64,000 nt of DNA from Sphingomonas sp. Leaf20 (lineage in GTDB: Bacteria > Pseudomonadota > Alphaproteobacteria > Sphingomonadales > Sphingomonadaceae): positions 1,054,001 through 1,118,000 of the forward strand of contig NZ_LMKN01000001.1 of the NCBI RefSeq assembly GCF_001421535.1, in the 5' to 3' direction. The position numbers and the translations under genes were made by a program. Position 1 is the first letter of the stretch, and every line of letters starts with the position of its first letter. This document shows positions 13,641-62,275 of the stretch, piece by piece. The notes beneath the pieces were generated by a model, which saw only the letters and a list, made by a program, of their open reading frames with translations, was not told the origin of the DNA and ran no database searches.

Positions 13641-14507
13641 GTGGCAGCGCGCGCATACTGGCAGGGACAGATCCGGCTCGCGCTGGTCTCGATCCCCGTC
13701 GAGATCTACTCCGCCACCAAGTCGGGCGCGGCGGTCTCGTTCAAGCAGATCCATGAGCCGTCGGGGCAGCCGATCCATTACGACAAGGTGGTCACCGGCG
13801 TCGGCCCGGTCGATGCCGACGAGATCATGAAGGGCTATGAGGTCTCGAAGGGGGAATATGTCCTGCTCGAGCAGGACGAGATCGACGCGGTGAAGCTCGA
13901 GTCGAAGAAGACGCTCGAACTCACGCAGTTCGTCGACGCGAGCGAGATCGACGTGCTCTATTACGAGAAGCCCTATTTCGTCGTCCCCGCCGACGACCTC
14001 GCCGAGGAGGCCTTCATCGTCCTGCGCGAGGCGCTGCGCCGGACGAAGAAGATCGGGCTCGGCCAGCTCGCGATGCGCGGGCGCGAATATGTCGTCAGCC
14101 TCAAGCCGTGCGGGCGCGGCCTGGTGCTCGAGACGCTGCGCTACGCCGACGAGGTCCACAAGGCGCAGGGCTATTTCCGCGACATCCCCGACGACAAGCC
14201 CTCCGAGGAGCTGCTTGAACTCGCCGAGGCGCTGATCGTCAAGCGCAGCGGCGACTTCCACCCGCAGGAATTCCACGACCGCTATGTCGACGCGCTGAAG
14301 GACCTGATCGAACGCAAGCGCAAGGCGAACGGCAAGACGATCATCGAGGACAAGGATACCGGCGAGCGCAAGGGCTCGAACGTCGTCGACCTGATGGCCG
14401 CGCTGAAGAAATCGATGGCTGCGAAGGAACCGGCGAAGGCTGAAGAGAAGAAGGCCCCGGCCAAGAAAACGCCCGCCAAGCGCGCCCCGGCGAAAAAACG
14501 TGCCTGA
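13641..14507 (+). CDS. ku: Ku protein, non-homologous end joining
   Basis: A 288-residue bacterial Ku that binds broken DNA ends as a dimer and recruits LigD. It starts at a GTG (VAARAYWQGQIRLALVSIPV), the usual opening of the family. The core includes KQIHEPSGQPIHYDKV, KGYEVSKGEYVLLEQDEI and YYEKPYFVVPAD. The C-terminal tail is rich in Lys and Ala (KKTPAKRAPAKKRA), as in Ku proteins whose tails bind DNA or LigD. A paired palindromic repeat separates it from ligD. Confidence 0.95.
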   Translation: MAARAYWQGQIRLALVSIPVEIYSATKSGAAVSFKQIHEPSGQPIHYDKVVTGVGPVDADEIMKGYEVSKGEYVLLEQDEIDAVKLESKKTLELTQFVDASEIDVLYYEKPYFVVPADDLAEEAFIVLREALRRTKKIGLGQLAMRGREYVVSLKPCGRGLVLETLRYADEVHKAQGYFRDIPDDKPSEELLELAEALIVKRSGDFHPQEFHDRYVDALKDLIERKRKANGKTIIEDKDTGERKGSNVVDLMAALKKSMAAKEPAKAEEKKAPAKKTPAKRAPAKKRA

Positions 14508-14516
14508 ACACAGCAT

Positions 14517-14598
14517 CGTCATCCCAGCGAACGCTGGGATCTCCCCGTTGCCGCCCACCCCCCTGCCGCACGAGATCCCAGCGTTCGCTGGGATGACG
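14517..14598. repeat. paired palindromic repeat (copy A), between ku and ligD
   Basis: Two inverted arms, CGTCATCCCAGCGAACGCTG onward (14517-14542) and its reverse complement (14573-14598), separated by about 30 bp. Each arm is itself a palindrome (ATCCCAGCG AA CGCTGGGAT). The same architecture recurs at 15228-15308, 30123-30215 and 62194-62275. It resembles REP/BIME-type intergenic elements. It may also act as a transcript-end hairpin for ku, but there is no T-tract. Confidence 0.85.
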
Positions 14599-14614: not shown

Positions 14615-17122
14615 GTGGCTGACACCCCCGACCCACTCGCGCGCTACAACGCCAAGCGCGACTTCGCGAAGACCGCCGAACCCGCGGGCACGCTGACCCC
14701 CGGCAACGGCAACAGCTTCATGGTGCAGAAGCACGACGCCACCCGGCTCCACTGGGACCTGCGCCTCGAGATCGACGGCGTGCTCAAGAGCTGGGCGGTC
14801 ACCCGCGGCCCCAGCCTCGACCCGGGCGAAAAGCGCCTCGCGGTGCGCACCGAGGATCATCCGCTGAGCTACGCGACGTTCGAGGGCACGATCCCCGCGG
14901 GCGAATATGGCGGCGGCACGGTGATGCTGTGGGACCGCGGCAGCTGGTCGCCGATCAAGGGCAAGTCCGCGAGCGATCTCGACAAGGGCCATCTCCACTT
15001 CGTCCTCGACGGCGAACGGATGAAGGGCGAATGGCTGCTCATCCGCCTCAAGCCCCGCGCGAAGGAAAAGCGCGAGAACTGGCTGTTGCGCAAGATCGAC
15101 GACGCTGCCGCAGGCGGCACCGACACGCTTGTCGACGAGGCGCTCACCAGCGTGTCCACCGGCCGCACGATGGCGGAGATCGCCGAGGGGAAGAAGCCGG
15201 CACGCGCAACCAAACCCGCCCCTCCCCCGTCATCCCGGCGAAAGCCGGGATCCAGAGCCAAAAGCGCCGCGGCCGATACGCTGGATCCTGGCCTTTGGCA
15301 GGATGACGCCGCGCTCCCCGATTTCCGCGACCCCCAGCTCTGCACGCTCGTCGATGCCGTCCCGACCGGCTCGGCCTGGCTGCACGAGGTCAAATATGAC
15401 GGCTACCGCGCGCTCGTCGCGGTCGCGAACGGCACGGCCAGGGTGTTCACGCGCACCGGGCTCGACTGGACCGACAAGTTCGCTGGAATCGCCGCCGCCG
15501 CCGCGACGCTGCCCGTCCGGTCCGCGCTGATCGACGGCGAGATCGTCGCGTACAAGGACGGCCATCCCGACTTCTCGACGCTGAAGGACGCGATCTCGAA
15601 CGGCGGCGACATGACATTGTTCGCGTTCGACCTGCTCGAGCTCGACGGCGAGGACCTGACCGGGCTGTCCAATCTCGACCGCAAGGCCCGGCTCGAACCG
15701 CTGATCCCGGGCGACGACAACCGGCTGCGCTATTCGGACCATGTCGTCGGCGCGGGCGAGCAGTTGTTCGAAACCATGTGCCGCGAGGGGCTCGAGGGCA
15801 TCGTCTCGAAACGCGCCGACGCGCCCTATGCGGGCAAGCGGACCAAGGCGTGGCTCAAGGTCAAGTGCACGCACCGGCAGGAATTCGTGATCGTCGGCTG
15901 GCTCCCCTCCGACAAGAAACGCGGGTTCAAGTCGCTGCTGCTCGGCGTGCGCGACGGCAAGGGCTATCGCTATGCGGGCAAGGTCGGCACGGGCTTCGAC
16001 CAGGCGCTGATGACCGAGCTGCGCGACAAACTCGAGGCGCTCGACCGCAAGACGCCGACCGTCGACGCTCCGAAGGCTGCGGTCCGCGGTGCGAAATGGG
16101 TCACGCCCAAACTCGTCGCCGAGATCGCGTTCGCCGAGACCACGCCCGACGGCGTGCTGCGCCATTCGAGCTTCATCGGCCTGCGCGAGGACAAGGCGGC
16201 GAAGGACGTCGTCGCCGAGACGCCTGCGCCGGTCCCGGATGCCGCCGACGCGGTCCCCGCGACGCGCATCACCGTCACCAGCCGCGACCGCGTCCTGTTC
16301 GACGAGTCGGACGTCACCAAGGGCGATCTCGCCGATTATTATGCCGCGGTATCGGGCATCATGCTGCCCTTCGCGGGCAGCCGCCCGATCAGCCTCGTCC
16401 GCTGCCCGCAAGGCCGGTCGCGCGCCTGCTTCTTCCAGAAGCACGACGCAGGCAGCTTCGGCGATGCGGTCCACCAGGTGCCGATCCGCGAGAAGGACGG
16501 ATCGACCGAAGACTATCTGTACGTCGACGACGCCGACGGACTTGTCGCGTGCGTCCAGATGGGGACGATCGAGTTTCATGGCTGGGGATCCTCGGTCGCG
16601 GCGCTGGAAAAGCCCGACCGGCTGGTCTTCGACCTCGACCCCGACGAGGGGCTCGCGTTTTCGGATACGAAAGCGGCGGCGGAGCATCTGAAGACGCAGC
16701 TTGCCGAGCTCGGCCTCGTCAGCTTTCCGCTGCTGTCGGGTGGCAAGGGGATCCATGTCGTCGTGCCGCTCACGCCCGACGCCGAATGGCCCGCGGTCAA
16801 GGACTTCGCCGACCGGTTCGCGCGCGCGCTCGCCGGCGCCGAGCCCGACCGCTTCGTCGCGACGATGGCCAAGGCCAGGCGCAAGGGGCGGATCTTCATC
16901 GACTGGCTGCGCAACCAGCGCGGCGCCACCGCGGTGATGCCCTATTCCGCACGGGCAAGGGCCGGCGCACCCGTCGCGGCGCCCGTGTCGTGGACCGAAC
17001 TGCGCGACATCGACACCGCCGCGCGCTGGGGCGTACGCGACGTCGACGAGCTCATCGCACGGGTCAATTCGCGCGCGCTCAAGGGATGGGGCGTGGCCGA
17101 CCAGGTGCTGCCCGATCTGTGA
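14615..17122 (+). CDS. ligD: multifunctional DNA ligase D
   Basis: An 835-residue end-joining enzyme with three activities, in the order phosphoesterase, ligase, polymerase. The phosphoesterase is near residues 30-150 (KHDATRLHWDLRLEIDGVLK, TRGPSLDPGEKRLAV, PAGEYGGGTVMLWD). The ATP-dependent ligase has its nucleotidyl Lys260 in EVKYDGYRA, with LIDGEIVAY and LEGIVSKRADAPY. The polymerase/primase is C-terminal (FFQKHDAGSF, DRLVFDLDPDEGL, LSGGKGIHVVVPL, RIFIDWLRNQRGATAVMPYS). It starts at a GTG. The linker before the ligase domain, about residues 205-232, is encoded by a palindromic repeat element. It pairs functionally with the upstream ku. Confidence 0.96.
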   Translation: MADTPDPLARYNAKRDFAKTAEPAGTLTPGNGNSFMVQKHDATRLHWDLRLEIDGVLKSWAVTRGPSLDPGEKRLAVRTEDHPLSYATFEGTIPAGEYGGGTVMLWDRGSWSPIKGKSASDLDKGHLHFVLDGERMKGEWLLIRLKPRAKEKRENWLLRKIDDAAAGGTDTLVDEALTSVSTGRTMAEIAEGKKPARATKPAPPPSSRRKPGSRAKSAAADTLDPGLWQDDAALPDFRDPQLCTLVDAVPTGSAWLHEVKYDGYRALVAVANGTARVFTRTGLDWTDKFAGIAAAAATLPVRSALIDGEIVAYKDGHPDFSTLKDAISNGGDMTLFAFDLLELDGEDLTGLSNLDRKARLEPLIPGDDNRLRYSDHVVGAGEQLFETMCREGLEGIVSKRADAPYAGKRTKAWLKVKCTHRQEFVIVGWLPSDKKRGFKSLLLGVRDGKGYRYAGKVGTGFDQALMTELRDKLEALDRKTPTVDAPKAAVRGAKWVTPKLVAEIAFAETTPDGVLRHSSFIGLREDKAAKDVVAETPAPVPDAADAVPATRITVTSRDRVLFDESDVTKGDLADYYAAVSGIMLPFAGSRPISLVRCPQGRSRACFFQKHDAGSFGDAVHQVPIREKDGSTEDYLYVDDADGLVACVQMGTIEFHGWGSSVAALEKPDRLVFDLDPDEGLAFSDTKAAAEHLKTQLAELGLVSFPLLSGGKGIHVVVPLTPDAEWPAVKDFADRFARALAGAEPDRFVATMAKARRKGRIFIDWLRNQRGATAVMPYSARARAGAPVAAPVSWTELRDIDTAARWGVRDVDELIARVNSRALKGWGVADQVLPDL
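15228..15308. repeat. paired palindromic repeat (copy B), in frame inside ligD
   Basis: An 81-bp copy of the palindromic pair. The left arm starts CGTCATCCCGGCGAAAGCCG and the right arm ends TGGCAGGATGACG, with GGATCC segments facing inward. It is read in frame as 27 codons of the ligD linker (SSRRKPGSRAKSAAADTLDP and following). The left arm is a near-perfect palindrome (ATCCCGGC GAAA GCCGGGAT); the right arm is less regular. Confidence 0.8.
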
Positions 17123-30122: not shown

Positions 30123-30215
30123 CGTCACCCCGGCGGACGCCGGGGCCCATGGTTTCGGTCCGCGTCATGAGCGGATGCTCCGTGTCCATGGGTCCCGGCG
30201 TTCGCCGGGATGACG
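30123..30215. repeat. paired palindromic repeat (copy C), between serC and serA
   Basis: The left arm begins CGTCACCCCGGCGGACGCCG (30123) and continues through GGGGCCCATGG. The right arm begins CCATGGGTCCCGGCGTTCGC and ends GGGATGACG (30215). The two are imperfect inverted copies with self-complementary cores (CCGGCG..CGCCGG). Architecture is the same as at 14517 and 62194, with a slightly longer spacer. The pair lies in the 184-bp serC-serA gap and may modulate read-through or mRNA decay. Confidence 0.82.
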
Positions 30216-62193: not shown

Positions 62194-62275
62194 CGTCATC
62201 CTGACGAAAGTCAGGACCCAGGGTCACGACCGCCGCGCTGCTTGGCTCTGGATCCTGACGTTCGTCAGGATGACG
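62194..62275. repeat. paired palindromic repeat (copy D), next to pyrC
   Basis: The left arm begins CGTCATCCTGACGAAAGTCA (62194 onward) and continues GGACCCAG. The right arm is CTGGATCCTGACGTTCGTCA and ends GGATGACG (62275). Each arm has a self-complementary core (ATCCTGACGA..). Same overall plan and length (82 bp) as the copy at 14517. It overlaps the pyrC stop region by about 11 bp, so the pyrC C-terminus is encoded by its edge. Confidence 0.85.

Follow-up and report, generated by a model that had tools for sequence, protein, structure and literature searches.

How does a palindromic DNA repeat come to lie in frame within the gene for a non-homologous end-joining ligase, and what has kept it there? 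The question is raised by ligD of Sphingomonas sp. Leaf20, in a window of 64,000 nucleotides (the window is the whole stretch of DNA that was analysed), where the following features matter.

13641–14507, plus strand: ku, upstream of ligD (PF02735, E 2.9e-48; start read from the sequence)
14517–14598, no strand assigned: intergenic REP dimer in the ku–ligD gap, 82 bp, of another subtype than the ligD copy
14615–17122, plus strand: ligD, 835 aa in a single open frame, with 3'-phosphoesterase, ATP-dependent ligase and primase-polymerase
15173–15337, plus strand: the whole LigD linker from phosphoesterase to ligase, as cut for comparison (alignment and extraction plus Pfam); the recurrently occupied site
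15228–15308, plus strand: CGTC-type REP head-to-head dimer, 81 bp, about 27 codons, peptide SSRRKPGSRAKSAAADTLDPGLWQDDA
15228–15251, plus strand: left REP arm, with CGTC tag, perfect 8-bp stem and GAAA loop, then the CCA tail
15252–15284, no strand assigned: spacer between the arms, with CCA tails at both ends
15285–15308, minus strand: right REP arm, inverted, with CGTC tag and an 8-bp stem with one mismatch
30123–30215: REP dimer of the CCCCGGCGGACGCCGGGG subtype, 93 bp, laid out as the ligD copy
62194–62275: intergenic REP dimer, 82 bp, laid out as the ligD copy

Functionally, the gene has the make-up of a bacterial end-joining LigD, with phosphoesterase, ligase and polymerase domains in one protein and ku adjoining. 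Pfam assigns LigD_N to aa 38–144 and begins the ligase match at aa 252, and the element, at about codons 205–232, falls between both, the reading frame being open across it with LigD domains on either side and its translation being predicted from the sequence. The first-pass annotation had placed it in a basic interdomain linker, and both this domain placement and the positive charge of the linker support that view. A second, partial LigD match (polymerase part; 65% identity, 226-aa open frame) was seen in the same genome at C10:57323–57973.

Structurally, the CGTC superfamily is defined by a CGTC tag, a stem of 8–9 bp starting with AT, a loop of 4–5 nt and a CCA-like tail, and its families CGTC-1 to -4 are found mostly in alpha-Proteobacteria, as head-to-head dimers and with no dedicated transposase, in the account given in the main sections of Di Nocera et al. 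(2013, PMC3733652). The left arm of the ligD dimer reads CGTC-ATCCCGGC-GAAA-GCCGGGAT-CCA and the right arm, on the reverse strand, CGTC-ATCCTGCC-AAAG-GCCAGGAT-CCA with one stem mismatch, so that both arms carry the tag, the AT-starting 8-bp stem, the 4-nt loop and the CCA tail, and the element shares the dimer form as well. By the features given in PMC3733652, 15228–15308 is thus a CGTC REP dimer. An 81-bp palindromic repeat in frame within ligD, as had been described from the sequence, is thereby confirmed, its layout being the same as that of the 82-bp dimers at 14517–14598 and 62194–62275. Its closest genomic match, an 82-bp dimer elsewhere on the contig, has 67 identical positions, and tag, stem, loop, tail, length and spacer start all agree with the genomic copies.

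Genomically, the repeat is dispersed in high copy and mostly as head-to-head dimers, as is characteristic of the superfamily. The arm pattern gave 143 + 157 matches in the 4.31-Mb genome against 0 + 0 read backwards (a few of the listed matches were not REP-like), and a tag-and-stem scan of 1.6 Mb gave 396 arms where the reversed sequence gave 50. The same 1.6 Mb held 130 dimers, 113 of them 81–84 bp long, with the reversed control covering arms and not dimers. A plasmid search returned matches at 60–80% identity only. For the count of dimers in genes, 1.6 Mb of the window's contig was joined, a simple hexamer gene finder called 1407 genes on it (coding share 89%), and one gene miscall in the ku region was replaced by hand before dimers were counted. 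Six of the 130 dimers fell inside called ORFs, and three of these, in ligD, truB (82 bp) and ileS (82 bp), we judge to be truly intragenic. The dimer at C1:599397 was dropped since it lies upstream of the likely true UvrB start, as were those at 343548 and 572101, whose ORFs of 54 aa and 188 aa are doubtful (the latter without a Pfam match). Single REP arms in genes (92 of 142 singles) were also set aside, their peptides indicating mostly chance matches of a loose pattern. The two further host genes are:

L135:5014–6012 (G000 C1:625014–626012): truB, with an 82-bp REP dimer in a loop
L136:4427–7393 (G000 C1:644427–647393): ileS, with two palindromic inserts

The truB and ileS inserts, at 82 bp, are also open, which corrects the earlier notion that a length divisible by three is what keeps the frame. 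IleRS has a CGTC REP around aa 291 and, elsewhere in the protein, another repeat of a different kind (PPSPLRGEGRGEG...PHPSPLPDGERE).

That only three of 130 dimers are judged intragenic, though called genes make up 89% of the stretch, is what would be expected under pure tolerance, by which repeats insert everywhere and are mostly lost again from coding sequence, the ligD linker is neutral ground on which copies in frame survive, and the bias in charge would mean no more than that acidic or hydrophobic versions are removed. The AlphaFold2 model fits this reading in having no predicted secondary structure in the linker past a short helix at its start, but it was built from a 30-row alignment and says little on the linker because it is poor overall (mean pLDDT 56.7), the phosphoesterase domain included (below 50).

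Comparatively, the linker in relatives offers a more telling record. Of 101 genus genomes, 99 gave a LigD match, weak in two cases (G003 and G086, E about 1e-7), and from 475 encoded relatives in named records the best 80 were taken, so that 110 linkers (30 from genus genomes, 80 from named-record relatives) were reduced to 95 by deduplication. Sorted by motif and by eye, 27 of these carry a CGTC REP, 27 a second type that we call GG, 38 neither, and three are unclear. The GG type is a GGGGAGG-type palindromic dimer (TCCTCCCC...GGGGAGGGGGACC), unrelated in sequence to the REP; in 30 chosen genomes the GG pattern was found in 26 and the CGTC pattern in 27, with no reversed matches, and an exact GG match is absent both from this genome and from that of S. 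aerolata. The nearest relative, Sphingomonas aerolata NW12 (91%; L031), has the same 81 bp at the same codon (offset 613–694), and other close relatives have a different REP subtype or a GG dimer at the same linker position. An insertion confined to this lineage, with flanks joining cleanly elsewhere, had been named as the confirming result, and this was not found: S. aerolata has the insertion too, the place is taken by other palindromic repeats in close relatives, and no clean empty site appeared in the ten aligned pairs. A target duplication at a precise empty site, as looked for in a MITE-like transposon, did not appear among these pairs either.

Distant LigDs with the same residues and no palindrome would have refuted the insertion, a result that did not occur: more distant relatives mostly differ there, many having K/A/P-rich linkers without palindromes. 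Some linkers scored as neither may keep remnants, such as SSGVTKKKK in L092 (by eye). In other genera of the family, the same linker contains a third family of almost perfect palindromes (CCCACCCCTAACCCCTCCC... and its inverse) in one of 12 LigDs (L261), and four extra genomes of the same genus showed REP, GG, REP-like and none, respectively (by eye).

Quantitatively, a mechanical repeat signature was present in 54 of the 95 linkers. Among 3223 windows of equal length elsewhere in LigD, 54 had a REP-like arm and two a GG signature, whereas REP arms occur in 28 of the 95 linkers. Folding was computed for 109 linkers, duplicates included and L103 left out. No window of the gene folds as strongly as the linker in 51 of the 63 genes with a repeat there, which is true of 0 of the 46 others; and the linker outdoes at least 95 of 100 synonymous shuffles in 49 of the 63 and in 1 of the 46. 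The linker of this strain has no such excess (z −0.1 against synonymous shuffles, its fold being matched by 8 of 67 windows), because it holds an imperfect dimer, a heterodimer. This lack of excess folding, like the imperfect right arm, could be taken to mean that an ancient coding sequence resembles a REP by chance, an idea that we regard as highly improbable given the agreement with genomic copies in all the features named above, and the enrichment of arms in linkers over other LigD windows. Occupancy speaks against pure tolerance, too: 54 of 95 linkers are occupied, against about three dimers in about 1400 called genes, which calls for a tolerance above the average, although ligD was chosen for holding one.

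Evolutionarily, the type of repeat changes often. On a quick maximum-likelihood LigD tree with the linker excluded (92 rows; 28 of 92 inner branches weak), linker type requires at least 22 changes, or 16 without the 20-row clade of this strain. Changes between repeat and none number 13 (12 without this clade), those between REP and GG 12 (7 without it), and well-supported branches alone force 10, 14 and 12 changes for REP, GG and none, each scored against the rest. Recombination between alleles can mimic such turnover, and we weighed the reading that there was one ancestral repeat, later types having arisen as repeats underwent gene conversion or as strains exchanged ligD alleles. L032 has the insert of L001 and L031 yet is nested among GG carriers, and against its sister L011 the upstream part is 95.1% identical and the rest of the gene 98.5%, so that its insert is probably an allele exchange; the mixed faeni/aerolata clade has a similar look, and repeats of one family share enough sequence for conversion to be possible. 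However, REP and GG sequences are unrelated, seven REP/GG and 12 repeat/none switches persist outside this strain's clade, and in the sister pairs L022/L065 and L027/L068, whose repeat families differ, the flanks are 87–95% identical, so that no long exchange tract is seen there, and their similarity up to the linker edge is close to that over the remaining gene. A single ancestral repeat is therefore unlikely as a general account.

Some LigDs are broken at half or collapsed repeats. In twelve further genomes, taken since their LigD matches were split, three genes (L267, L269 and L271) are frameshifted at a collapsed GG hairpin and a fourth (L270) at half a GG element; of the remainder, L268 is broken elsewhere, L272 is cut by a contig end and six are intact. 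In these four genes the linker frameshift separates phosphoesterase from ligase-polymerase. Both sides can still be recognised despite the scar or half element between them, which again favours pure tolerance.

The reading frame differs from gene to gene. In 26 of the 27 REP linkers of LigD the left arm is read in a basic, SSRRKPG-like frame (by peptide pattern; L026 is the exception), and in 20 of 21 when left arms are located by position, while right arms use two frames. The SSRRKPG-like frame is the rarest open frame among this genome's dimers, being open in 45 of 258 readings of the 129 other genomic dimers versus 131 and 133 for the other two frames, and it is the most basic of the three in those dimers (+3.1 versus −1.4 and +1.2). 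Mean net charge is +6.4 (REP), +5.0 (GG) and +6.4 (none) for LigD linkers and −1.8 and −3.0 for TruB and for site 2 of IleRS, the LigD values being of whole linkers with edges and the others of insert columns only; these comparisons of frame and charge, including their P-values, treat relatives as independent, ignoring kinship. In 28 of 30 TruB inserts both alternative frames would be more basic than the one in use, a count on the 30 best-scoring of 60 matched genomes from which the other 30, where the TruB match breaks at the loop, are absent. Five REP-like left arms in TruB are read in the other two frames. The 30 IleRS loci were likewise the best-scoring of 61 matched genomes, and their inserts read RHPGESRDP or VAPAKAGA (by eye). 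Within LigD, the frame in use is the most basic of three in 14 of 27 REP, 19 of 27 GG and 17 of 38 non-repeat linkers; because that holds for only 14 of the 27 REP linkers and right arms are two-framed, the argument from charge rests on the left-arm frame and on the contrast between genes. Such strongly different use of frames between genes runs against pure tolerance, which has its insertion part in common with the explanation that we prefer and which we hold to be possible but not the better account.

In relatives, the truB and ileS sites contain repeat-derived peptides of several families in many genomes (alignments, by eye), the second IleRS site being filled by varied repeats in the same way. 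In some relatives the TruB loop is nearly empty, as in G059, where the two halves of the match lie 3 nt apart.

Locally, the dimer between ku and ligD had suggested spread over a short distance. Ranked by similarity to the ligD copy among 129 dimers read on both strands (258 readings), that dimer comes only 220th, the best match being elsewhere on the contig. In S. aerolata, which shares the ligD copy, the strict scan gave no dimer in the ku–ligD gap, where there is just a REP-like pair, degenerate and lacking tags. These two observations leave spread from the ku–ligD dimer unsupported, and near neighbours are in any case ordinary, 79 of the 130 dimers having another within 711 bp. The ku–ligD gap also seems to be a favoured place for repeats: in L032, L034, L035–L037 and L042 it was seen to hold another large palindrome (GGGAGGGGTTGGGGGTGGGT...), and in L038, L039, L041, L043 and L044 a REP dimer like that at 14517.

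A REPIN consists of two inverted REPs and a spacer dispersed as one unit, and REPINs are of the GTAG type and go with RAYT transposases. The ligD repeat differs from them in having a CGTC tag and in residing in a genome without a RAYT-type gene, the search for RAYT-type transposases (PF01797) giving no match here when five of 14 control genomes gave one. A RAYT as mover of the repeat was accordingly rejected for want of a PF01797 match in this genome. The search likewise gave no dedicated transposase flanked by repeats, as befits the CGTC superfamily, and the few matches in the genus (four of 61 genomes) are in line with the description of CGTC repeats as lacking a dedicated transposase in the main sections of PMC3733652.

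Thus, we posit that ligD probably acquired its REP dimer in a common ancestor with S. aerolata and that the dimer was kept in a tolerant linker, as part of a recurrent colonisation by several families on which the protein has exerted selection by charge. The CGTC dimer would be a short, non-autonomous, mobile-looking repeat that inserted in the ligD of this common ancestor and was retained through landing in frame in a tolerant interdomain linker. A few coding sites in Sphingomonas (the ligD linker, the truB loop and the ileS loops) would have been colonised repeatedly by unrelated palindromic families, with copies decaying or collapsing, perhaps by deletion between the outer arms, and others replacing them. 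Selection at the protein level may then keep the frames that fit locally, basic in LigD and acidic or neutral in TruB and IleRS. Directly observed are the insert in frame and its identity as a repeat, its presence in S. aerolata as well, the different types at the site, the differences in frame and charge and the collapsed scars; from these we infer that the repeat is mobile, in what order events took place, and that selection caused the bias.

Several elements of this picture have precedents. GTAG and CGTC REPs were already reported inside genes, many of them for DNA synthesis or repair, and the cases described in the main sections of PMC3733652 include, in S. alaskensis and E. litoralis, genes for pseudouridine synthase B and for tRNA synthetases; in O. 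terrae, whose genome is of the GTAG type, a gene for a DNA ligase; and Xanthomonas recB, where copies occupy the same site whereas other genes have them at different sites; whether intragenic REPs are neutral or alter the protein was left open there. Intragenic REPs, including those in repair genes, have therefore been known since 2013, in that part of the literature, and the ligD copy is a further case. The same sections count RPE-4 and RPE-6 of R. conorii as CGTC repeats, and Rickettsia palindromic elements, by their description, are likewise palindromic repeats in frame within protein genes, in another genus. Enterobacterial RU elements (Delihas 2007, PMC2759123), compared by the partial description used here, are small mobile repeats of 103–168 bp with open frames inside gene loci, alike in being intragenic and different in size and host.

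A search of the literature for repeats in ligD, intragenic repeats in Sphingomonas and replacement in frame at one site returned only PMC3733652 and other reports of intragenic repeats, within a scope that excluded most subscription papers, and 'repeat insertion' was not found in the LigD literature sampled, for example in passages of PMC8656161. The sections of PMC3733652 considered do not contain ligD of Sphingomonas, serial replacement by unrelated families at one codon or gene-specific frames, and recurrent occupation by several families with such frames did not turn up in the literature searched (PMC3733652 without its supplementary gene list).

Practically, caution is called for with annotated proteins, in which a peptide like SSRRKPG or SSPARGGGP can have come from a repeat. 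More broadly, the ligD linker amounts to a natural experiment, with some 16–22 inferred changes of type, two unrelated families, contrast genes and broken alleles, and it permits a direct test of whether repeats in proteins are tolerated or are selected by frame and charge. A bolder and rather doubtful version holds that such coding sites are standing landing pads at which the host picks repeat linkers by frame, basic for LigD and acidic for TruB and IleRS, and at which a resident palindrome may attract the next; if true, selfish repeats would be a renewable source of functional protein segments. Either way, the finding bears on how the linkers of a non-homologous end-joining ligase evolve.
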